From Bacteriovorax sp. (lineage in GTDB: Bacteria > Bdellovibrionota > Bacteriovoracia > Bacteriovoracales > Bacteriovoracaceae): 58,236 bases of DNA. The first letter of the stretch is position 1, and the number at the start of each line of letters is the position of its first letter. The notes beneath the pieces are model-generated. The model saw nothing but the letters and a program-made list of their open reading frames with translations. It searched no databases and was not told the origin of the DNA. The stretch spans positions 1 through 58,236 of the forward strand of contig JACMNL010000071.1 of the NCBI GenBank assembly GCA_014378525.1, given 5' to 3'. Shown in pieces: positions 3,575-29,408 of this stretch. The position numbers and the translations under genes are program-made.

Positions 3575-4534
3575 ATGGTACATACGAGACATATTCTTTT
3601 CATCGATCCTCTTGAAAAATTAAATCCCAAAAAAGATTCAACATTAATGCTCGCAACAACTATGAAAGAGCAGGGTGTGGAAGTTTATCTTCTTTTTGAA
3701 AAAGATTTTTATGTCAGCAATAAATCAAAAAATATCCTGAAAGTTTACGATTTTAGCGGCCACTTCTATGAAGATGGTGCTTATTTAAAATCTTTTGAGC
3801 TCGGAAAATCCTTCGATGTAGAAATATCAACAAAAGATACAGTTCACATGCGCATTGATCCACCATTTGATACGCGCTACCTGCGATACTTATGGATGCT
3901 TCGTTATTACAAAGTCCAGGGAATCAATGTTGTGAATTCTCCCGATGGAATTTTGCGATTCAATGAAAAACTTCACGCTTATACACAAAAATCTTCGCTG
4001 GAAACTTACGTTGGAAGCAGTGTCGAAGGTTTTATGCGTTTTGTAGATTTGATGAAAAAAGACAATGAGGAACTGATTTTAAAACCTCTGGATTTATACC
4101 AGGGCTTCGGCGTTGAAAAAGTTTCAATTAACGATGCTAACCTTGCTTTTAAATTCGAAGAAAAAGTAAAAGAGAACAACGGCGCCATCGTCGCTCAACC
4201 TTTCTGCAAAGAAGTTGTGAATGGAGAAATTAGATCGCTTTATTTTAAAGGTAAAGAATTAGGATCAATTTTAAAAGTTCCTAAAAAAGGAGAGTTTCTG
4301 GCGAATATCGCTCAGGGAGCTGCTTTTCATGCAATTGAACTTGAGCCTGCCGTGAAAATAGAATGCGATCGTATCTGTGTAGAGCTCATGGCCGAAGGAA
4401 TCGACTGGGTGGCCTTTGATATTTTAGGAAATAGTGTTTCTGAAATTAACATTACTTGCCCGGGACTTTTGGTCGAAGTAAGTTTTGCGCACAAAAAAAA
4501 CTTAGCGCTGGAAATTATTAAACAGCTTCATTAA
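3575..4534 (+). CDS. gshB: Glutathione synthetase-like ATP-grasp ligase
   Basis: This 319-residue protein matches prokaryotic glutathione synthetase in length and layout. It has the substrate-domain motif MRIDPPFDTRY, an ATP-grasp lysine region (LILKPLDLYQGFGV) and a C-terminal metal/substrate motif EINITCPGL, equivalent to EINVTSPTG in classic GshB. It should join glycine to gamma-glutamylcysteine with ATP. The change from SPTG to CPGL and the absence of a nearby gshA leave room for a related ligase with another substrate. AGGAATTTGCCAG precedes the ATG. The gene starts 11 bases after the peptidase gene, so it probably shares its transcript. Confidence 0.82.
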   Translation: MVHTRHILFIDPLEKLNPKKDSTLMLATTMKEQGVEVYLLFEKDFYVSNKSKNILKVYDFSGHFYEDGAYLKSFELGKSFDVEISTKDTVHMRIDPPFDTRYLRYLWMLRYYKVQGINVVNSPDGILRFNEKLHAYTQKSSLETYVGSSVEGFMRFVDLMKKDNEELILKPLDLYQGFGVEKVSINDANLAFKFEEKVKENNGAIVAQPFCKEVVNGEIRSLYFKGKELGSILKVPKKGEFLANIAQGAAFHAIELEPAVKIECDRICVELMAEGIDWVAFDILGNSVSEINITCPGLLVEVSFAHKKNLALEIIKQLH

Positions 4535-4575
4535 GAACATTTTCCAATGACTGACTGGCAATCATAAATTTTTTC

Positions 4576-5343
4576 TTAGTTAGGTAAATCGTAAGTGTTA
4601 TCTGTCGCCATATCCATGCTGAAAGCAACACATTCAGTTTGTGCTGTAGCAGGTGTTCTGTAAGGAATATCTAAGTATAGTGTTCCAGCTGTACATGCTG
4701 CCGTTTGAGTTGCAGAAAGCGCACCATAGATACTTGCCTGACATCTGTGATCTGAAGATACACCAACAACTTCCAGAATGTATGGTTCAGTCGTTCCGCC
4801 TGGAACTGTAAAGCGTGCTGTGTTTGAATAAGCACCAACTGTCGCAGTAAGTTCTTTAACTTCACCGATTGAATCCACTGTTCTTCTGAACATGACATAA
4901 ACTTTTAATTTTTTAAAATTAGTCGTCAGGTATTGTCCACAAGTTCTACCTTGTCTCGAAATTTCATTTCCTACCGCATAAGAAGGCTTCATTCTCACTG
5001 CAAAACTTGCATCTGTTCTAAACTGACTTGGTGAAATTGAACTAGGTAGTCCTGTTGCTGAAGACCATAGTGTTGTTCCGTATGCACCAGGACCGTTAAA
5101 AACTAATCTTGGAAGATTGCTGAAATAACAACTTGTTGCTCCTGAACGGTATACACCACCAGGGCATCCTGTTGTCGTTGTTGTTCCATCATTAACTACA
5201 GTTCCATCAGTGGTAGTAGTAGTTGAGCCATTACTTGTAGATGTTGTAGATTTTTTATTTGTCGTGCTCGATGATTGAGTACAACTTACAATTGCTGTAG
5301 ATAACAGCAGAATAAAAAAAGATGTTCTTGTAATGTTTTTCAT
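4576..5343 (-). CDS. Lipoprotein of unknown function with Ser/Thr-rich linker
   Basis: A signal sequence ends in lipobox IVSC (Cys near residue 21). A linker of about 35 residues made almost entirely of Ser, Thr and Asn follows, then a cysteine-containing C-terminal domain of about 195 residues. At least six cysteines after the linker suggest disulfides and an extracytoplasmic place. AAAGGG lies nine bases before the ATG. The gene is convergent with the gshB-like gene and divergent from the sigma-like gene. I recognise no family. Confidence 0.75.
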   Translation of the reverse strand: MKNITRTSFFILLLSTAIVSCTQSSSTTNKKSTTSTSNGSTTTTTDGTVVNDGTTTTTGCPGGVYRSGATSCYFSNLPRLVFNGPGAYGTTLWSSATGLPSSISPSQFRTDASFAVRMKPSYAVGNEISRQGRTCGQYLTTNFKKLKVYVMFRRTVDSIGEVKELTATVGAYSNTARFTVPGGTTEPYILEVVGVSSDHRCQASIYGALSATQTAACTAGTLYLDIPYRTPATAQTECVAFSMDMATDNTYDLPN

Positions 5344-5403
5344 AATCAGACCCTTTGGGTTTTTAATCTCTCTCCTTAGTCTATTCGACTCATTTGGTAA
5401 TTT

Positions 5404-5497
5404 ACTTGAAAATTAAATATATCTTGGGCCCGGAAAGGCGAAGCAGCGTTTCAAGTGCCTGATTCTTGGTGTTGCCGGTAGTTGTAATCGATTCAGG
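5404..5497 (+). ncRNA. Candidate structured RNA or 5' leader upstream of the sigma-like gene
   Basis: Two adjacent helices can form. ACTTGAAA (5404-5411) pairs perfectly with TTTCAAGT (5449-5456) around a 37-base loop containing GGGCCCGGAAAGGC. CCTGATTC (5458-5465) pairs with GATTCAGG (5490-5497) with one T-T mismatch. A short GGGC/GCCC pair (5500-5503 and 5524-5527) lies further on. The segment is more G+C-rich than its surroundings and precedes a gene with no clear Shine-Dalgarno. It could be a regulatory leader or a separate small RNA. It matches no riboswitch class I know. Confidence 0.35.
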
Positions 5498-5557
5498 ACG
5501 GGCGTAGAATAGATAGATGAAAGGCCCTAAGGACTGGGTCTCTATATAAAAGAAAAA

Positions 5558-6061
5558 ATGAAAACTATTGAACTCGAAAAATTCATCCAAAATTTAAGCA
5601 CTGATCTCTACAGCTTCGCTTTTATTTTAATCCCCGACGACCTTCAGGCAACACAACTGATGATTGATTCCGTCAGCGCTTTCATGATTAAAAATAAAGT
5701 TTTAGTCGAGAAATGGAAGAGTGGAAACGAGTCCGATCTCGTTCTGCATTCAACTGATATAAAGATACATCTTTATAAAGCGATGTATGACCTTTCAAAA
5801 AAGCGCTACTCTCAATTGCGTTTGAGTTTTAAAGACATCGAGGACCAGTCAGGATTTTTCTCACTGGAGTTTGATGATAAGGCCGTTCTGTTTTTGCAGG
5901 AGCGATCAGAGTTTTCAATGGAGCTGATAGAATTTATTTTAGGTAAAACGCGGGGAGAAGTCCTGGCGCATTTATATTCTGCACGTATTTCTATGGTGAG
6001 CAAACTTCCTCGCCGCAATGAAAAAAGTGACGGGCAGATTCATTTTAGAAACCACAACTAA
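5558..6061 (+). CDS. Degenerate ECF sigma factor-like protein
   Basis: This 167-residue protein has the size and helix layout of an extracytoplasmic-function sigma factor. Residues about 13-45 (LYSFAFILIPDDLQATQLM) resemble the region 2 core helix. Residues about 128-150 (ILGKTRGEVLAHLYSARI) resemble the region 4 helix-turn-helix, where family members read GxSxGTVKSRLxRAR. The similarity is weak, so promoter recognition is uncertain. The next gene encodes a small zinc-finger membrane protein of anti-sigma type, which supports the reading. The ATG follows an A-rich stretch without a real Shine-Dalgarno and a structured 150-base leader, so translation may be controlled. Confidence 0.55.
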   Translation: MKTIELEKFIQNLSTDLYSFAFILIPDDLQATQLMIDSVSAFMIKNKVLVEKWKSGNESDLVLHSTDIKIHLYKAMYDLSKKRYSQLRLSFKDIEDQSGFFSLEFDDKAVLFLQERSEFSMELIEFILGKTRGEVLAHLYSARISMVSKLPRRNEKSDGQIHFRNHN

Positions 6062-6071
6062 GGATCAATGA

Positions 6072-6512
6072 GTGGACAGGCGTAGCTTTCAAAGTAGTTC
6101 GGTAAATTTTAATTCCAAGACTAAATGCATACACACTAAAAATATCTTTTCGCTGCTTGATTTAAAGCAATCTGAAGAGAGTTACAAAAAAATCAAAAAG
6201 CATGTTGATTCATGCCAGACATGTGAAACTGAATTTAAAAAATTTGAACTTGAAAGTATTGAAGTAAAAATTCACATCCCGAAACCTCAAATCGATACTG
6301 AAACAAAAGAAATCTATACGAGAGAAGTCAGCGAAATTTTTAAGGCCTTTGACCTGAATGAAAAAGCTGCTCTTCGGGCTAAAATCAAGTCAAAAATTAA
6401 AGGGATCGATTCATTTGGACTCTCGATTCTCAAGACCCTGGCGAGTAGAAAAATGATCGCGACGTACGCTTTTGCAGGCGTGATGTTTATTGTTCTAAAA
6501 CAATTCTTCTAG
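6072..6512 (+). CDS. Putative anti-sigma factor with zinc finger and one membrane helix
   Basis: This 146-residue protein has HVDSCQTC near residues 44-51, the HxxxCxxC part of the zinc-binding anti-sigma (ZAS/zf-HC2) fold. A mid-region of charged helices follows, then a single C-terminal hydrophobic helix (about residues 125-146, AFAGVMFIVL). The layout fits a membrane-bound anti-sigma factor holding the upstream sigma-like protein. GTG 6072 is the only sensible start: ATG 6068 runs into a stop after five codons, and AAGGA sits eight bases upstream. Its stop overlaps the stop of the convergent TonB-like gene through CTAG. Confidence 0.6.
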   Translation: MDRRSFQSSSVNFNSKTKCIHTKNIFSLLDLKQSEESYKKIKKHVDSCQTCETEFKKFELESIEVKIHIPKPQIDTETKEIYTREVSEIFKAFDLNEKAALRAKIKSKIKGIDSFGLSILKTLASRKMIATYAFAGVMFIVLKQFF

Positions 6513-18927: not shown

Positions 18928-19461
18928 ATGTTTCCAAAGTTTTTAATTTTGATGGTTTGTATTTTGCTTTCTTTTGAAGTTTTTTCAGAAGAGGCGATTG
19001 AAAATATTCCAAGAGAAAAAACAAAAATCTTAAATAACTGGGAAGTTGTTTCAGGTCTAAAAAGTGTCAATGAAAAAAAATACAAAGGTAGTCAGAAAGA
19101 AATTTTTAAAAAACAAAAAGGGCAAGTTATGCTCAAGCGCACCCGAAGAAAAGGACAAGCGTTGTTGAATGTTGAAAATGAAGATGAAGCTCAGGTTGTT
19201 TATAATCCGAAAAGGAGAGCATCCGGAACTATCGATGGAACACTGATTATTTACTTTAATCAGATGGTGGATCAAAAAGAAGTCCTGAAAAATTTCCCTA
19301 TAAAAAAAATGCGCCAGGAAGCTGGCCTGAAGTTCGGCATTTATAAAGTGAAGGCCGGCAATGATATTGAAAAAGTAGTAGAGGACTTAAAAAAAGATCC
19401 GCGAGTTAATAACGTAGAGGTCGAAGTACTCTCCAGTAATAGAAGTATAAAACCACTATGA
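18928..19461 (+). CDS. Secreted protein with inhibitor I9/subtilase-propeptide-like domain
   Basis: This 177-residue protein has a signal peptide (about 1-18) and a basic middle part (KRTRRKGQALL). Residues about 98-168 run TLIIYFNQM...LKFGIYKVKAG...KKDPRVNNVEVEV. This beta-alpha-beta pattern, ending in 'dp.V..ve', is that of subtilisin propeptides and I9 inhibitors. It overlaps the downstream subtilase gene by four bases (ATGA), so the two are made together. It may act in trans as the chaperone or inhibitor that the subtilase lacks next to its catalytic domain. ATG 18928 with AGAGG six bases upstream is preferred over TTG 18922. Confidence 0.7.
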   Translation: MFPKFLILMVCILLSFEVFSEEAIENIPREKTKILNNWEVVSGLKSVNEKKYKGSQKEIFKKQKGQVMLKRTRRKGQALLNVENEDEAQVVYNPKRRASGTIDGTLIIYFNQMVDQKEVLKNFPIKKMRQEAGLKFGIYKVKAGNDIEKVVEDLKKDPRVNNVEVEVLSSNRSIKPL

Positions 19462-22400
19462 AAATAATCGTTTTCATTTTATTACTTTTTACTCTTGGCG
19501 GATGTCTCGTCAAGAAGCCTGACGTTCCAGACTCTATCGTTTATGAAATTTCTTTCAGCGGTGCTCCTGTCTACGATGATTTATCAAATACTGTTACCTT
19601 CAAAGTAAATTATAAAAATGCCAAATCAATATCGCTGGTAAATGCCAATGTCACTTTAGTTAAAACCGGAACACTGACAGGAATTGCCAATGTTTCAGGT
19701 GACGGGCTTGAATCCAGAACTATTACAGTTTCTGATTTGAATGGAGTCGGAACAATCGCTGTCAGTATTGCAGGCGGTACGGCACTTTATTCAAAAACAA
19801 TTTCTGCCAAGGCCATTGGCCCTTCGGCCGCATATACAATGGTCCATACTCCACCGGCAATCACAATTTCAACTCCAAGTCCTGCACGTTCAGCAAGTGG
19901 GCCAGTATCTTTTACTGTTAATTATACAAATGCGACTGCAGTTGTTCTTGATTCATCTTTTATTACGCTTGTTAAAACTGGAACTGCAGACGCAGTTTTT
20001 TCTGTAACGGGTTCAGGATTTTCTAGAACTGTAACTTTAAGCAGTATGACAGGATCGGGGACTATTGGATTTTCCATTGCGACTGATTCAGCTCTCAGTA
20101 GCACAGGTATTTATTCTTCAAGTACATCTTCACTTGTTCCTGTGACAGTCGATAATGCTCCTCCTGTTATTTCTTTTTCAAGTCCATCGGCCTCTATTTC
20201 GAGTGCAGGCCCAGTCAGTTATACTGTCAGTTATACTGAGCAGCCGGCGATATCTTTGACGACAGGAAAAATCACCTTAAATAAAACGGGAACTGCTGAT
20301 GGAGTCGTCAGTGTTTCTGGCAGCGGAAATCTTCAAAGAACAGTATCTATATCGAGCCTAAGCGGAAATGGAACTCTCGGGATTTCTCTTGCGGCCAATA
20401 CTGCTGTTGATGATGTTGGAAACGTATCTCTTGCAGCTGGGCCTTCTACCACTTTTACAGTTGATACAATTCCTCCGACATTTACGGTGTCAGCTCCATC
20501 AGTAACAGTTACAAATAGCGGGCCGGTAACTTACAACGTATCATATACCGGTGCTTCATCAGTTACACTCACTTCTTCAAATATTGTTTTAAATAAAACA
20601 GGAACAGCGAATGCGACAGTCGCAGTCAGTGGAACAGGATCCACTACAAGGACAGTGACTTTAAGTAGTATTACGGGTGATGGAACATTAGGTTTCACGA
20701 TAGGTGCCAATACTGCAACGGACTCGGCCGGAAATTATGCTGTTGCTGGAAGCGCTTCTGGAACTTTTAATGTCGACAATACAGCTTCAGGAATTTCATT
20801 CTCAGCTCCTTCACTGGCCACTACAAATAATGGTACTGTTACTTTTACAGTGACCTATAGTGATGCTGCTTCAATTTCTCTTATTGATTCCGATGTCATT
20901 TTAAATAAAACAGGAACAGCAAACGGAACGGCGACCGTCACTGGTAGCGGTTCAACAACAAGAACAATTACAATCACTGGTGTAACCGGAAATGGAACTA
21001 TTGGTGTAAAACTCGCTGCAGGTACGGCCATTGATACGTCAGGAAATTTAGCGCTAGCGAGCGGAAGTTCTTCAAATTTTATTGTTGATAACGTTAGGCC
21101 TACACTGGCGATCTCAGCTCCCTCTGCACTCATAAGTAAAACGGGGCCAATAACTTATACAATAACTTACTCAGGTGCGACGGCGATTTCATTGGCGGCC
21201 GGTAATATAACTTTAAATAAAACAGGAACTGCTGACGGATTGGTTGCTGTAACAGGTACCGGGATAACAACAAGAACTGTTACTATCAGCGGTATTACCG
21301 GAGATGGTACTCTTGGAATCTCATTGGCAGCAGCAACGGCCACTGACGATGCGGGAAATGCTTCACTCGCTTCATCTGCTTCGACAACTTTCGCCGCTGA
21401 CAATACTCCGCCGCCAATCTCAATTGGTACTCCTTCAAAACTTGGAACAACTTCAGGTCCAGTAACCTACACTATAACGTATTCTGGAGCATCTGCGGTC
21501 TCTCTTACTTCAGCTAATGTGACATTAAATAAAACTGGAAGTGCCAACGGAACAGTTGCCGTCTCTGGAAGTGGAACAACTACAAGAGTTGTCACAATTT
21601 CCGGAGTGACAGGAAACGGTTCACTAGGAATTTCAATAGCAGCAGGAACTGCAGTAGATGTGGCAGGAAATTCTGCAATATCTCCGTCTGCTTCATCAAC
21701 CGTGTATGTAACAGACGATCCATTATTTTCATTCAGCTGGCATTTATACAACTATGGACAGACTTCTTTTTCAACAGGGGCCGGGTTCGCGGGTTATGAT
21801 TTGAATATCCTCGGAAGTTATAAAAATGGATTTAAAGGTGCAGGAATAAATGTTCTAGTTTCTGATACCGGAGTAGAGGCGACACACGAAGATCTTGCTG
21901 CTAATTATTTGAGCGGATCAGTGAGTGTTGATTTTGTGAATGGAACAACGCCGAGCTTTTTAAATTCTACAGCACTGCCTGATTACACCGATGCTGAAAG
22001 TTTTCACGGCACTTCAGTGGCCGGATTAATTGCAGCGGCCTCCGGAAATGGACTTGGCGGACAAGGTGTAGCACCGTCTGCAAAAATCGCGAGCGCCAAC
22101 TTTCTTCGCTCTGGTGGAACGCTGACAGAAGAGCTTGCACAGATCGACGGAAATTTTTCGATCATCAATCAAAGCTGGGGTTATAGTCAATGTGCTATTA
22201 CGACTCCGGACGCAGCTTATGAAGCGAAGATGAAAACAGACAGAAAAATATATATTAAGTCTGCAGGAAATAGTTTTGATCAGGCCATGAATGAATGTGG
22301 CGGACCAAATGTGATGAGACATGGTAGTTCTGTGGTGGATGCCATGGATAACAATCCGTACATGATTATTGTAGCTGCTATGAATGCACGTGGATTGAAA

Positions 22401-23267
22401 TCATCTTATTCTTCTCCAGGATCAAATATCTGGATTACTGGAATGGGCGGAGAGTACGGTGATACGGCACCTGCGATGATTACAACAGACTTAGGCGGCT
22501 GCACGTATGGATCGTCTCCAGCATTTGCTTACAACAGTTTTCAGCTATCCTCTCATCCGCTCAATACACAATGTAAATATACGTCCGTGATGAACGGAAC
22601 TTCTTCTGCTGCTCCAATTTTATCCGGAGTTGTGGCGATGCTTTTAAGTGCGAATAACACTTTAACTGCGAGAGATGTAAAACATATTCTAGCAACGACT
22701 GCGCGGAAAATTAATCCGACAGCAGGTGCCACAGTTAATGCATATGCCACTGCACTTTCAGGTCACGTATGGCAGCAGGGATGGGTTACAAACGCAGCTG
22801 GATATCCATTTCATAACTATTATGGATTCGGTCTTGCGGATGTGGATGCGGCGGTTGCGATGGCCACTGGCGGATACAGTGCGCTTCCTGTAGAAGTGCA
22901 AACAAATTACGTCAATTCAGGGACAGTCAATCTGGCAATTCCTGATAATAGTGCAACAGGTGTTCAGAGTTCAATCACTACAGCTTCTACACTTACTGTT
23001 GAGGCCATACAGATTAAAACTCATATCACTCATGCAGATATCGGACAGCTTGGTATTGAAGTAACTTCACCCAGCGGAACAAAAAGTATTATTCTGAATA
23101 TAAATAATTCGCTTCTGGGGCTTGCTGATTTTTCTAATGAAGTTTTTTTATCAAATGCTTTTTACGGCGAAACTGCGACAGGTATATGGAAAGTAAAAAT
23201 TATAGACGGGCTTAGCGGTACTACTGGAACTTTGCATGACTGGGACTTAAATATCATCGGGCATTAA
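19458..23267 (+). CDS. Lipoprotein subtilisin-like serine protease with seven repeats and P domain
   Basis: The 1269-residue protein starts with a lipobox (LGGC, Cys near 16), so it should be tethered to a membrane. Seven repeats of about 104 residues follow (about 25-750), each with a core such as LNKTGTADGVVSVSGSG and a linker like TVDNTPP, resembling bacterial Ig-like stalks. The S8 catalytic domain has Asp803 (VSDTGVEATHEDL), His850 (FHGTSVAGL), oxyanion Asn938 (SAGNS) and Ser1049 (MNGTSSAAP), so the triad is complete. A proprotein-convertase P domain ends the protein (IGQLGIEVTSPSGT...WDLNIIGH). No propeptide lies between the stalk and the catalytic domain. Likely role: surface protease held away from the membrane. 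Confidence 0.92.
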   Translation: MKIIVFILLLFTLGGCLVKKPDVPDSIVYEISFSGAPVYDDLSNTVTFKVNYKNAKSISLVNANVTLVKTGTLTGIANVSGDGLESRTITVSDLNGVGTIAVSIAGGTALYSKTISAKAIGPSAAYTMVHTPPAITISTPSPARSASGPVSFTVNYTNATAVVLDSSFITLVKTGTADAVFSVTGSGFSRTVTLSSMTGSGTIGFSIATDSALSSTGIYSSSTSSLVPVTVDNAPPVISFSSPSASISSAGPVSYTVSYTEQPAISLTTGKITLNKTGTADGVVSVSGSGNLQRTVSISSLSGNGTLGISLAANTAVDDVGNVSLAAGPSTTFTVDTIPPTFTVSAPSVTVTNSGPVTYNVSYTGASSVTLTSSNIVLNKTGTANATVAVSGTGSTTRTVTLSSITGDGTLGFTIGANTATDSAGNYAVAGSASGTFNVDNTASGISFSAPSLATTNNGTVTFTVTYSDAASISLIDSDVILNKTGTANGTATVTGSGSTTRTITITGVTGNGTIGVKLAAGTAIDTSGNLALASGSSSNFIVDNVRPTLAISAPSALISKTGPITYTITYSGATAISLAAGNITLNKTGTADGLVAVTGTGITTRTVTISGITGDGTLGISLAAATATDDAGNASLASSASTTFAADNTPPPISIGTPSKLGTTSGPVTYTITYSGASAVSLTSANVTLNKTGSANGTVAVSGSGTTTRVVTISGVTGNGSLGISIAAGTAVDVAGNSAISPSASSTVYVTDDPLFSFSWHLYNYGQTSFSTGAGFAGYDLNILGSYKNGFKGAGINVLVSDTGVEATHEDLAANYLSGSVSVDFVNGTTPSFLNSTALPDYTDAESFHGTSVAGLIAAASGNGLGGQGVAPSAKIASANFLRSGGTLTEELAQIDGNFSIINQSWGYSQCAITTPDAAYEAKMKTDRKIYIKSAGNSFDQAMNECGGPNVMRHGSSVVDAMDNNPYMIIVAAMNARGLKSSYSSPGSNIWITGMGGEYGDTAPAMITTDLGGCTYGSSPAFAYNSFQLSSHPLNTQCKYTSVMNGTSSAAPILSGVVAMLLSANNTLTARDVKHILATTARKINPTAGATVNAYATALSGHVWQQGWVTNAAGYPFHNYYGFGLADVDAAVAMATGGYSALPVEVQTNYVNSGTVNLAIPDNSATGVQSSITTASTLTVEAIQIKTHITHADIGQLGIEVTSPSGTKSIILNINNSLLGLADFSNEVFLSNAFYGETATGIWKVKIIDGLSGTTGTLHDWDLNIIGH
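19855..21715 (+). repeat. Tandem coding repeats in the subtilase stalk, period about 312 bases
   Basis: Unit boundaries recur at about 19855, 20155, 20474, 20788, 21099 and 21411, with a diverged first unit before 19855. DNA phrases such as TTAAATAAAACAGGAAC recur in the later units. The central units are closest to one another, which fits internal duplication followed by drift. Confidence 0.8.
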
Positions 23268-23277
23268 GTGAAAACTT

Positions 23278-23318
23278 AAATTCTGCTTTAACAAATTTTT
23301 ATCGTTAAAGCAGAATTT
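23278..23318. terminator. Bidirectional terminator between subtilase and small coiled-coil gene
   Basis: A perfect 15-pair inverted repeat runs from AAATTCTGCTTTAAC (23278-23292) to GTTAAAGCAGAATTT (23304-23318) with an 11-base loop. It lies exactly between two convergent genes. The stem ends are A/T-rich in both directions. Confidence 0.75.
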
Positions 23319-23326
23319 ACAACTAA

Positions 23327-24475: not shown

Positions 24476-24624
24476 GTCTAAATGCAACCTAAAAACTAAA
24501 AATAACGCATACTTATCTTCTATCAATTTATAATTTTTTGGATCAAAATAGTTAAAGATTCAAGGCTTAGGTGCCGATAAATCTATGAATTGAAAATTGC
24601 GATTACACTACTATGGAGAAAAAA

Positions 24625-25245
24625 ATGGATCCAAAAGCTTATATCCCGAACCCGATTGTTATTGAGCAAACTGCAAGAGGTGAGCGCCAGTACGATATTT
24701 ATTCTCGTCTACTTTTAGATAGAATTATCTTTTTAGGTACAGAAGTTAACGATACGGTAGCGAATTTAATCATGGCACAGATGATGTTCCTAGAGCAGTC
24801 TGATGCTGAAGCGCCAATTCACTTTTACATCAATTCTCCAGGGGGGTCAGTGTACGCTGGTCTTGGTATTTACGATATTATGCAACACATTTCATGTCCG
24901 GTTTATACTTACTGCGTAGGTATGGCCGCTTCAATGGGATCTCTTTTATTAACTGCAGGAGCTGCAGGATTCCGTCACTCAATGCCACACTCACGTATCA
25001 TGATTCACCAGCCATTAGGTGGAGCAAGAGGGCAGGCGTCTGATATTCAGATCCAGGCCAACGAGATTCAGGACCTGAAAAAACAGTTAAATGGAATTTA
25101 CGTGCGTCACACGAGTGCTGGTATGACTATGGAGCGCATTGAAAAAGAGACAGATCGTGATAACTATTTAAATCCATCGAAAGCAATCGAGCTGGGATTG
25201 ATCGACGTGATCATTGATAAGTCTGGAAGAAAATTAAAAAAATAA
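24625..25245 (+). CDS. clpP: ATP-dependent Clp protease proteolytic subunit ClpP
   Basis: ClpP forms a 14-subunit serine-protease chamber fed by ClpX. The catalytic triad is visible: Ser103 in GMAASMGS, His128 in MIHQP and Asp179 in [23 protein letters not shown] lines the active site. ATG 24625 is preferred because GGAG (24615-24618) sits six bases upstream; ATG 24613 overlaps that site. The 206-residue length is normal. clpX follows after 39 bases, the usual operon order, and peroxiredoxin is divergent. Confidence 0.96.
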
Positions 25246-25284
25246 TTGGGTTCGTAGAAAAGCATATAGCGAAGGAAAATAGAG

Positions 25285-26598
25285 ATGACAAAAGACAAAG
25301 CGAATTTCGGAAGTGCTCTTCACTGTAATTTTTGTGGGAAATCACAAAAAGAAGTTAAGAAGTTAATCGCAGGACCTGGTTGCTATATTTGCGACGAGTG
25401 TATCGAGCTATGTAACGATATTATTTTTGAAGATTCACAAAAATCAAATGCAAAAGCTGTAGTTGATAATGTTCCAAAGCCTCATGAGATTAAAGCTCAC
25501 TTGGATAACTATGTTATCGGACAAGACAGAGCGAAAAAAATTATCTCGGTTGCGGTTCATAACCACTACAAGAGAATTGCCCACAAGACGGGTGACTCAC
25601 GAAAAGGTGATGCAGTTGAACTGGCAAAATCAAACATCCTTTTAGCTGGGCCAACTGGTTCCGGTAAAACTCTTATCGCACAATCTCTTGCGAAGTTTCT
25701 GAACGTTCCATTTGCCATTGCAGATGCAACGTCATTAACTGAAGCAGGGTACGTTGGAGAAGACGTTGAGAACATCATTTTAAACCTTCTTCAAAACTGT
25801 GACTTCGATGTTGAACGCGCTCAACGCGGAATCGTTTATATTGACGAGATTGATAAGATTGCAAGAAAATCTGAAAACCCGTCGATCACTCGTGACGTTT
25901 CAGGTGAAGGTGTTCAGCAAGCTCTTTTAAAAATCGTAGAAGGAACTATTGCTTCTGTTCCACCGAAAGGCGGCCGCAAGCATCCTCAACAGGAATTTAT
26001 CCAGGTTGATACAAAAAATATTCTTTTCATTTGTGCCGGTGCCTTCGTAGGTCTGGATAAAATTATCGAAAAGCGTATGACAAAAAGACCAATGGGTCTG
26101 ATCTCGGAGAAATCTGAAATCGCTCAATCAGTGATTGAAAAACTTGGTGGTATCGAGCCTGAGGATCTTTCGAAGTTCGGATTAATTCCAGAGTTCATCG
26201 GACGTCTTCCAGTAAACGCTATGTTAACTGAACTTGATGAAGCAGCACTTGTTTCAATTTTAACTGAACCAAAAAATGCTTTAACTAAACAGTACATGAA
26301 ACTTTTTGAATACGAAGGAATCGAACTTGAGTTCGAAGCTGACGCTCTAAAAGAAGTTGCACGTCAGGCACTTGATAGAAGAACAGGAGCACGTGGTCTT
26401 CGCGCGATTCTTGAGCAGTCAATGTTAGACGTCATGTACGACATTCCTTCAAACGAAAAAGTTTGTAAGGTTATCGTGACAATGGATTCTGTAACTGGAA
26501 GAGGAACTCCGAAAGTTATCGAAGGGCCAAGAAAAGTTCCGGCAGCATCCTCTGCTACAACAGCTGTTGCTCCTAAGAAAACTGTCGAGTCAGCTTAA
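25285..26598 (+). CDS. clpX: ATP-dependent Clp protease ATPase subunit ClpX
   Basis: ClpX unfolds tagged proteins and passes them to ClpP. The N-terminal C4 zinc finger is clear (CNFCGKS and CDECIELC). The AAA+ domain has Walker A GPTGSGKT near 122-129, [15 protein letters not shown], Walker [12 protein letters not shown], the IGF-type ClpP-binding loop region and sensor 2 (RRTGARGLR). It is 437 residues, with a short Ala/Thr-rich tail beyond the usual end. It is co-transcribed with clpP and ends at a strong terminator. Confidence 0.96.
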
Positions 26599-26625
26599 CT
26601 AAAAATTCTGAAAATTTTTTATAGA

Positions 26626-26655
26626 GGCCGCTATTTTTAGCGGCCTTTTTTTTTG
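26626..26655 (+). terminator. Intrinsic terminator after clpX
   Basis: GGCCGCTA pairs with TAGCGGCC around a TTTT loop, followed by nine or more Ts. Confidence 0.93.
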
Positions 26656-26993
26656 TCTAATATAAAAATATCACGTAGAAAACAGTCGGATATAGGTGCA
26701 TTGTTGCACCTATCATACCGATTTTTTTTCAACTTACACTTCCTTACAATATGCCCCTATGATGTTGTTCAAAGAATACTATGAGTTAGCTTCAAGAGTA
26801 TTTTCATACACTATAAAAAGCACCATATGCTTTATTTATATGCCGGAAAAAAAAGCAATTTGTACCATTTATTTTAATTTGCAGAATGAACGAAATCTAT
26901 GTCATGATTTTATTAGACCCTTCGTATTCCTCAAGGAAATCAGGAAGTGAGCCTAGGAATAGGAAGGTGGTAACAAATAGTGCAGGAGGTACT
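26656..26993 (+). other. clpX-lon intergenic region
   Basis: This stretch of about 340 bases is very A/T-rich. It contains a small inverted repeat AAAGCA/TGCTTT (26817-26833) and the AGGAGG site for lon at its right end. A frame at 26696-26950 is open, but it has cysteine- and aromatic-rich, non-conserved content and no ribosome site, so I do not call it a gene. The lon promoter must lie here, but I see no convincing heat-shock consensus. Confidence 0.5.
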
Positions 26994-29408
26994 ATGTCTC
27001 AAGGTTCTTCAGATTCTAAAAAGTTCCCATTATTACCCCTAAGGGACATGATCATTTTCCCGCACATGGTAGTACCTCTCTTTGTGGGAAGAGAAAAATC
27101 CATCTCTGCTCTTGAAGAAGCGCAAAGAAACAACAACGAAATCTTTCTAGTCACTCAGAGAGATGCATCAGTTCTAAATCCAGATAGAGAAGATATTTAT
27201 GAAACAGGTGTTGTAGTAAACATCATTCAAATGCTTCGTCTTCCAGATAACACTGTAAAGGTGCTTATCGAAGGAAAATATCGCGCAAAAATCAAAACTT
27301 TTGAATCGGGTAGCGAAGGCTACTTTGCTGAAGTCGAGAAATGCGTATCAGAAACGAAGGACCCAGTTACTCTTGAAGCTACCATCAGAAGCATCAAAGG
27401 AATCTTTGAACAGTATGTGAAGCTAAATAAGAGAATTCCGCCTGAACTTTTGATGAGCATTTCTTCGATTACGGATCCTTCCCGTTTAGCAGACATCATG
27501 GTGGCTCATTTAACTATGAAGATCGCAGAGAAGCAGGAAATCCTTGAAGCTGTTGAAGTAGGAAGAAGACTAGAACTACTACTTGAAAAAATGCAAGGTG
27601 AAATCGAAATTATCAACGTTGAAAGACGAATCCGTACTCGTGTAAAAACGCAAATGGAAAAGTCGCAGAAAGAATACTATTTGAATGAGCAGATGAATGC
27701 GATTCAAAAAGAGCTTGGCCAGAAAGATGACGGCAAAACTGATATCCAGGAAATGGAAGAGAAGTTAGCTGCTAAAAAAATGCCGGAAGAAGCTCGCGAG
27801 AAAACTGCGAAAGAAATTAAAAAACTTAAATCAATGTCTCCAATGTCAGCTGAATCAGCTGTTGTTAGAAACTATGTTGACTGGATGCTTTCACTTCCAT
27901 GGGATGAATATACTACTGACAATAATTCCGTAGCGAGAGCGAAGGAAATATTAGACGACCACCATTATGGTATGAAAGATGTTAAAGAAAGAATCACAGA
28001 ATATCTTGCTGTTCGTTCACTTCTAAAAGGTGAAGGAAAAGGAACTATTCTTTGTCTATCTGGTCCTCCGGGAGTTGGTAAGACATCTATTGCGAAGTCT
28101 CTTGCTGAATCTCTTGGAAGAAGTTTTCAACGTATCGCTCTTGGTGGTGTACGTGATGAATCTGAAATCCGCGGGCACAGAAGAACTTACGTTGGAGCAA
28201 TGCCAGGGAAGATCATGATGGCCATGAAAAAGGCCGGAACATCGAATCCACTTATTCTTTTAGATGAGATCGATAAAATGTCATCTGATATGCGAGGTGA
28301 CCCTTCAGCAGCAATGCTTGAAGTATTGGATCCTGAGCAAAACAAAAACTTTGCCGATCACTATATCGAAGTTGAATACGATCTTTCGAAAGTTATGTTC
28401 GTAATGACAGCTAACGATTTAGGAAAAATCCCGGGTCCACTAAGAGACCGTATGGAGATCATCCATTTATCTGGTTACACTCCACAGGAGAAACTGGAAA
28501 TTGGGAAACGTTATTTACTTAAAAAAGCAGTGGCTGCTAACGGCTTAACTGAGCACGAAGTACAAATTGGCGATTCATGTATGACTGATATCATCCGTGG
28601 CTGGTCAAAAGAAGCTGGTGTTCGTGAGTTCGAAAGACAACTGAACACTGTCGTAAGAAAAATCGCTACTGAAGTTGTTACAAAAGAAATCCCGGCTGGA
28701 AAAAAATTCAATGTAACTTCTAAACAACTTTCTAAATATCTTGGGCCACGTCGTTTTGACAGCACAGATATTGAGTCAGGTTCACAAGTTGGTCTGGTAA
28801 ACGGATTAGCATGGACCTCAGTTGGTGGTGAACTACTTCACATTGAAGTTGTGACCGTAGAAGGAAACGGAAAAATCCAGATCACTGGTAAGCTGGGTGA
28901 AGTAATGCAGGAGTCGGCAAAAGCAGCTCTTTCTTACGTGAGAGCAATCTCTCCTAAACTTGGAATCAGTGCTGAATGGTATACAAAAAATGATATCCAT
29001 ATCCACGTACCGGAAGGAGCTACGCCGAAAGACGGGCCATCTGCAGGTGTGACAATGGTAACAGCTCTGACTTCAGCTATTACAGGAATCGCAGTTCGCC
29101 AGAACGTAGCAATGACTGGAGAAGTAACAATCAGAGGACGTGTACTGCCAATCGGTGGATTAAAAGAAAAACTTTTAGCTGCAAAACACGCAGGTGTTAA
29201 AACAGTTATTATCCCGGCAAGAAACGTAAAAGACTTAGCTGAGATCCCTGAAGAAATCCAGTCAGGATTAGACATCCATCCGTGTGAGCACGTAGATCAG
29301 GTTTTAAAACTTGCTCTGGACCTTACTCAGCCGGAAAAATTCCTTCTACCAGTTTCTCCAAACCTTACGGTTGTGGAAGGAGCAAGAGGAATGGAAGTAG
29401 CAAATTAA
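26994..29408 (+). CDS. lon: ATP-dependent Lon protease
   Basis: Lon is a homo-hexameric AAA+ serine protease that degrades damaged and regulatory proteins. The N-terminal substrate domain begins FPLLPLRDMIIFPHMVVPLF. Walker A is GPPGVGKT at 357-364, followed by RSFQRIALGGVRDESEIRGH. The catalytic Ser683 lies in KDGPSAGVTM, and the partner Lys is in the GGLKEKLLAA region about 43 residues later. Start ATG 26994 follows AGGAGG by four bases; an open frame extends upstream to 26886 but lacks a ribosome site. The resulting 804 residues fit LonA. Confidence 0.96.
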   Translation: MSQGSSDSKKFPLLPLRDMIIFPHMVVPLFVGREKSISALEEAQRNNNEIFLVTQRDASVLNPDREDIYETGVVVNIIQMLRLPDNTVKVLIEGKYRAKIKTFESGSEGYFAEVEKCVSETKDPVTLEATIRSIKGIFEQYVKLNKRIPPELLMSISSITDPSRLADIMVAHLTMKIAEKQEILEAVEVGRRLELLLEKMQGEIEIINVERRIRTRVKTQMEKSQKEYYLNEQMNAIQKELGQKDDGKTDIQEMEEKLAAKKMPEEAREKTAKEIKKLKSMSPMSAESAVVRNYVDWMLSLPWDEYTTDNNSVARAKEILDDHHYGMKDVKERITEYLAVRSLLKGEGKGTILCLSGPPGVGKTSIAKSLAESLGRSFQRIALGGVRDESEIRGHRRTYVGAMPGKIMMAMKKAGTSNPLILLDEIDKMSSDMRGDPSAAMLEVLDPEQNKNFADHYIEVEYDLSKVMFVMTANDLGKIPGPLRDRMEIIHLSGYTPQEKLEIGKRYLLKKAVAANGLTEHEVQIGDSCMTDIIRGWSKEAGVREFERQLNTVVRKIATEVVTKEIPAGKKFNVTSKQLSKYLGPRRFDSTDIESGSQVGLVNGLAWTSVGGELLHIEVVTVEGNGKIQITGKLGEVMQESAKAALSYVRAISPKLGISAEWYTKNDIHIHVPEGATPKDGPSAGVTMVTALTSAITGIAVRQNVAMTGEVTIRGRVLPIGGLKEKLLAAKHAGVKTVIIPARNVKDLAEIPEEIQSGLDIHPCEHVDQVLKLALDLTQPEKFLLPVSPNLTVVEGARGMEVAN

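Follow-up and report, generated by a model that had tools for sequence, protein, structure and literature searches.

The window analysed here is the whole 58,236-nucleotide stretch of contig JACMNL010000071.1 from Bacteriovorax sp. (Bdellovibrionota; assembly GCA_014378525.1). Two overlapping genes lie on its forward strand, one for a small exported protein (hereafter the partner) and one for a long subtilisin-like (S8) protease. We consider it highly probable that this pair forms a protease module of two genes like that of the Aeromonas sobria serine protease ASP and its external chaperone and inhibitor ORF2 (the ASP/ORF2 type); here the upstream protein would be the protease propeptide supplied in trans. 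Computed support for this reading comes from the fold, homology, gene adjacency, the register of the partner tail and the lipobox. The pair is laid out as follows.

18928..19461, + strand: partner gene, encoding a putative exported ORF2-like trans propeptide of 177 residues (ORF_2_N match, structural model, Foldseek)
18928..18987, + strand: predicted partner signal peptide, ~20 residues (cleavage site by eye; helix at residues 4-19 in the model)
19219..19434, + strand: partner propeptide-like domain, residues 98-169 (secondary structure of the model; Foldseek)
19435..19458, + strand: tail at the partner C-terminus, residues 170-177, with a predicted position in the active site (register of 98 tails; model confidence below 50 at residues 173-177)
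19458..19461, + strand: ATGA shared by the partner stop codon and the protease start codon (coordinates of the open reading frames)
19458..23267, + strand: ASP-like protease, predicted lipoprotein of 1269 residues (closest PDB entry by sequence is ASP, 3hjr/3wqb, E 9e-78)
19458..19505, + strand: protease signal peptide and lipobox, Cys16 (sequence; lipobox rule)
19506..21707, + strand: protease stalk, seven repeats of ~100 residues (by eye from the translation; a weak DUF7356 match lies below cut-off)
21837..22733, + strand: peptidase S8 domain, residues 794-1092 (PF00082, E 5e-30)
22998..23255, + strand: P domain, residues 1181-1266 (PF01483, E 4e-17)

The list of open reading frames (ORFs) places both genes in the same direction, with the ATGA at 19458-19461 ending the partner and starting the protease. 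The upstream ORF (18922/18928-19461) encodes 179 residues if read from a TTG and 177 from an ATG, and an AGAGG run seen by eye precedes the ATG. The protease opens with MKIIVFILLLFTLGGC, which contains the lipobox LGGC, and residues ~28-750 comprise seven repeats of the type ‘LNKTGTANG..VSGSG..RTVTI’ (counted by eye), which Tandem Repeats Finder does not detect at the DNA level. The overlap, lipobox, seven repeats and catalytic triad had been described in an initial annotation of this DNA and are confirmed from the sequence; D803, H850, N938 (oxyanion) and S1049 (as we number them) do not vary across 14 aligned sequences, which comprise the window protease and 13 relatives. The proprotein-convertase P domain that follows the catalytic domain had not been mentioned in that annotation. 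A PDB sequence search with the protease finds ASP (3HJR, 3WQB) over the catalytic and P domains, with furin (E 3e-26) and kexin (E 1e-25) a long way behind, while NCBIfam gives a mycosin match only, far below cut-off. Pfam recognizes no prodomain ahead of the catalytic domain, where only the lipobox and the repeats are found. The alignment reaches only as far as residue 559 of ASP and leaves the final 13 residues of the window protease unmatched, so the occluding region of ASP (around Arg566) appears to be absent here.

The partner had been proposed to carry an I9/propeptide-like domain. The propeptide-like fold is supported; the Pfam family Inhibitor_I9 (PF05922) has no match in the window partner at E<=1, nor among 67 partners at E<=0.01. 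The best Pfam match of the window partner is ORF_2_N (PF18492; 23.8 bits, E 5.6e-5), the family that represents the external chaperone of ASP, with Fervidolysin_NPro-like (PF22148) second at 20.7 bits against a cut-off of 21. Across the 67 aligned partners, ORF_2_N matches 26 at E<=0.01 (best 3.7e-10) and the fervidolysin prodomain matches seven. NCBIfam has no match for the window partner, and a phmmer search of the PDB with this protein alone yields a chance match only. An AlphaFold2 model of the partner (mean predicted local distance difference test, pLDDT, 86.0; predicted template modelling score, pTM, 0.73) has an N-terminal strand domain at residues 30-93 and a beta-alpha-beta-beta-alpha-beta domain at residues 98-169. 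Foldseek comparison of this model with 350,542 PDB chains ranks ORF2 (3wqb_B) first, with E 1.9e-3, probability 1.00 and a template modelling score of 0.69 by target length over 99 columns. Second is the propeptide of prosubtilisin (3cnq_P; probability 1.00, E 0.056), and Tk-subtilisin propeptides follow with probabilities of 0.96-0.97 and E values of 0.7-1. Structural similarity of partner residues 98-168 to subtilisin propeptides is, therefore, supported at the level of the predicted model. The signal peptide of the window partner looks cleavable. Many other partners (e.g., L134, L138 and L155) start with a hydrophobic segment with no evident cleavage site by eye, so those proteins may remain anchored in the inner membrane.

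The partner C-terminus has features of its own. Counted ungapped from the C-terminus, 98 partner tails fall largely into one register, a pattern that was sought after the tails had been viewed. Position C10 is acidic in 87 of the 98, C9 is hydrophobic in 97% and C8 in 86%. The last residue is K/R in 45/98 tails (background 14%) and K/R/N/Q/H in 80/98; D/E never occurs there (0/98). A product-like tail in a kexin-type active site would be expected to need these features, a basic or polar last residue and a constant spacing between the final strand and the C-terminus. ORF2 itself ends in a Lys near ASP residue 336, the catalytic serine (PMC5638518). The profile of the partner family, aligned to ORF2 at E 0.12-0.16, reaches within one residue of the ORF2 C-terminus. 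One other pair with a 4-base overlap (L026) has a partner tail that ends in PL at normal length.

Adjacency of the two genes was evaluated in two overlapping sets of loci. In the order set, 129 genomes of the order were searched and ASP-like proteases were found in 78 genomes (106 rows by our count); 26 of the 106 rows, mostly contig-split pieces or weaker matches, were left out, and the remaining 80 rows represent 78 distinct genes. The named set contains the best 80 of 242 loci from a collection scan, many of which are common to the order set; its loci are titled mostly Bdellovibrionota, with a few metagenome-assembled genomes titled Pseudomonadota, SAR324, Campylobacterota, Acidobacteria and Myxococcota. 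Partners were detected with a hidden Markov model (HMM) grown from 10 neighbours in four rounds on the same loci that were later scored. The seeds were picked as neighbours and only protease loci were searched, so the test covers the immediate neighbourhood within a few kilobases. In the order set a same-strand partner lies beside 68 of the 78 proteases (32 upstream, 36 downstream), and 67 of 68 partner-HMM matches (E<1e-4 among 1702 ORFs) are within 200 bases of a protease; the equivalent count in the named set is 71/72. A synteny search for the pair had been proposed with the initial annotation; when the two sets are merged into 111 distinct ASP-like proteases, the partner adjoins 99 of them, upstream in 53 and downstream in 46. 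With a propeptide-like fold and a partner beside most related proteases, the earlier suggestion of a propeptide supplied in trans was right in kind. The trans arrangement is usual in this ASP-like protease family, which is new here.

Twelve loci have no detected partner. Eight of them (L132, L153, L154, L156, L176, L186, L189 and L071) are truncated where a contig or stretch ends. Three others form one deep clade (L108, L111 and L112) in which the protease has an adjacent, more divergent, predicted exported neighbour downstream (L108 4107-4565; L111 1931-2476 on the minus strand; L112 4277-4897); of these neighbours only that of L112 matches PF22148, at E 0.004 and below cut-off. In this clade a trans propeptide may have arisen a second time. 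A relative that lacks the upstream gene had been named as a refuting case, and apart from these cut loci and this clade it is seen once in 111: L137 is an ASP-like protease with several kilobases on each side and no recognizable partner.

Gene order within the pair is labile: a quick tree of all 111 proteases, in which 26 of the 108 inner branches have weak support, needs seven switches to explain it. Repeated switching means that we do not take the downstream position as defining the ASP/ORF2 type. Partner and protease distances are correlated (r 0.57 for 95 pairs, shuffled maximum 0.10), with r 0.32 for protease pairs below 50% identity. A partner-like protein (L015; E 5e-7, 31% identical to residues 22-129 of the window partner) was also observed in G127, a genome absent from the list of those with an ASP-like protease.

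Several results weigh against reading the pair as an ASP/ORF2-type module. The window partner scores below the curated ORF_2_N cut-off (23.8 vs 29.2 bits), and a search of its own genome with ORF_2_N finds this partner only and not that of a second ASP-like protease described below. The partner family profile finds ORF2 in the PDB at E 0.12 and 0.16, which is not significant and falls behind a chance match at 0.035, and no Foldseek match reaches E 0.001, ORF2 included. A direct protein search with the window partner matches only 8 of the 129 order genomes, so the partner family depends on an HMM that was built up iteratively. L137 belongs among these points, as does the fact that correlated partner and protease distances would also be expected from shared descent alone. 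The window tail (...SSNRSIKPL) exceeds the family register by two residues; only when its final two residues are treated as surplus does it fit, with Lys175 then at the usual end. A model of partner and protease read through as one fusion (L120), built from a nine-locus alignment, has pLDDT 50.9 and pTM 0.48 and is unusable for docking. Last, an S8 protease of the same genome with a lipobox (L005) has 157 residues between its Cys and its catalytic domain, a possible cis prodomain by eye that Pfam does not recognize.

The window pair resembles ASP/ORF2 (3HJR, 3WQB) in its kexin-like S8 and P domains, in a protease without its own propeptide and in a separate adjacent chaperone gene whose product has the same fold. 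The partner tail is at the active site in ASP and is predicted from its register to be there in the window pair. The pairs differ in that the partner gene is upstream here and downstream of asp in Aeromonas sobria, that the window protease has a stalk and is predicted to be a lipoprotein, and that the extra occluding region of ASP appears to be missing. The window pair is a variant of ASP/ORF2 with these departures. Fervidolysin-type and I9 cis propeptides (PF22148, PF05922; 3CNQ) share the domain fold and a C-terminal tail, unlike the window domain in that the latter is encoded by a separate gene. ORF2 is required for ASP maturation and inhibits ASP with a half-maximal inhibitory concentration of 84 nM, and a 2022 subtilase survey treats ASP as the exception to propeptide-assisted folding in cis (PMC5638518, PMC9549277). 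The initial annotation had called the module unusual. This holds for the long stalk, which is rare, and not for the kind of module, which is already known from ASP/ORF2 (PMC5638518). Among titles and abstract starts of open papers we found no report of such a pair in Bdellovibrionota.

This copy of the pair has a local history. Its neighbours are a pilZ gene on one side and a small minus-strand gene on the other, and these two are direct neighbours in G008 (PilZ 96% identical) and in four more genus-mates (L226, L227, L228 and L230). The empty site in five genus-mates implies that both genes were gained, or lost, together. In 12 other genus loci, tblastn at 1e-4 finds no match to the partner in the stretch after pilZ (1.5 kb or less examined). 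The same genome has a second pair (L068) on contig 91, in which an ASP-like lipoprotein protease (3934-6380) is followed by a downstream partner with a 4-base overlap; it falls on a different tree branch from the window pair. The window protease belongs to a supported 15-row branch (12 upstream, one downstream, two without a partner) that is rich in Bdellovibrio-type records, yet the protease it most resembles, L053 at 52% identity, comes from its own family and lies elsewhere on the tree. Between the protease stop and a convergent 93-residue gene, an 18-pair inverted repeat (23277-23319) resembles a terminator for the minus strand alone and may therefore belong to the 93-residue gene rather than to the pair. 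ORFs resembling clpP, clpX and lon (recognized by eye) occur at 24613-29408, just past a peroxiredoxin-like gene, which places the insertion of the pair close to a cluster of core protease genes. Promoter-like sites, at 10 vs 11.8 in shuffles, are no more frequent than by chance.

By homology, we infer chaperone and inhibitor activities for the partner and the protection of the producer suggested in the initial annotation, together with their timing and location. Both proteins would be exported, after which the C-terminal beta-alpha-beta-beta-alpha-beta domain of the partner would dock on the catalytic domain and template its folding as a steric chaperone, with the partner tail lying in the cleft of the active site, where it would resemble a product and inhibit temporarily. 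The gene overlap would supply the partner together with the protease, lipidated Cys16 and the repeat stalk would keep the protease fixed to a membrane, and degradation or release of the partner would leave the enzyme active while still anchored. Lipase-specific foldases (Lif) are also steric chaperones of a secreted enzyme that are encoded by a separate gene; their fold and enzyme are unrelated, and the parallel is functional only.

The reason for a trans arrangement may lie in the lipid anchor. A first lipobox rule (63/77 and 58/78, in the ASP-like sets only) missed evident lipoboxes and was loosened, and the loosened rule was also run on 37 control S8 proteases from the same genome and 12 relatives, chosen by S8 score. 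Lipoboxes occur in 73 of 76 intact N-termini in the order set and in 68 of 73 in the named set (the sets overlap), compared to 1 of 37 controls; ASP-like proteins are one family, so 73/76 vs 1/37 does not represent many independent events. Seven of the eight misses look like lipoboxes by eye and L142 does not. Linkers ahead of the catalytic domain are 17-125 residues long in 69 of the 73 measured, with half under ~60, and a very long stalk such as that of the window protease is peculiar to a few family members. Among S8 controls from the same genome, L002 has PF22148 in cis (42.6 bits), L001 and L003 have weak Pfam matches below cut-off, and L005 and L006 have none; most other S8 controls have a prodomain-like stretch by eye. 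L008, L011 and L012, also S8 proteases of this genome, seem by eye to have a catalytic domain straight after the signal peptide. Subtilisin maturation normally cuts at the junction of propeptide and enzyme. We suggest as a hypothesis that lipid anchoring favours a trans propeptide because cis autocleavage would sever the enzyme from its anchor: a cis propeptide ahead of the catalytic domain would be cut off along with the anchor.

Descent alone might link the two traits, with one ancestor having had both and no mechanical reason for their association, and we give this explanation close to an even chance. It is consistent with the ASP-like proteases being a single family, as noted above, and with ASP being described as a secreted protease (PMC5638518), which means that a propeptide can act in trans on a protease that has no lipid anchor. 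Against it, the locus has been rearranged repeatedly, yet no fused partner-protease occurs among named-set loci. A second alternative, that the partner is purely an inhibitor that guards the cell in an immunity-like role while the protease folds without it, is unlikely. The conserved partner tail is consistent with inhibition, and propeptide-fold proteins also serve as free-standing inhibitors, with an example in Plasmodium. Against this alternative, no named-set protease ORF matches the partner HMM, and half of the linkers, at under ~60 residues, leave hardly any space for a prodomain in cis (the Pfam prodomain scan covers the window protease). In ASP, moreover, the same type of protein is required for maturation (PMC5638518). 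Low identity within the partner family (mean column identity 14%) could suggest a periplasmic protein with no link to the protease beyond co-transcription. This is very improbable, as ORF2 is the first structural match of the partner and adjacency survives repeated order switches.

Reading the pair as an ASP/ORF2-type module, the data point to a whole family in which the propeptide is a separate gene and the proteases are nearly all predicted lipoproteins. Its breadth as an anchored family was not found among the titles and abstract starts of the open papers searched. Approximately 100 matched protease-chaperone pairs provide a natural set for studies of steric chaperoning, inhibitor specificity and gene-order evolution. 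Tentatively, and with rather less than even confidence, we propose that this is a widespread lipid-anchored, kexin-like family centred on Bdellovibrionota, in which the propeptide could be permanently in trans because cis autocleavage would free the enzyme, and of which ASP/ORF2 could be a secreted offshoot. The anchor hypothesis offers a simple, testable reason for a propeptide to leave its protease. If true, detaching the propeptide would be a general solution for activating an N-terminally tethered zymogen.
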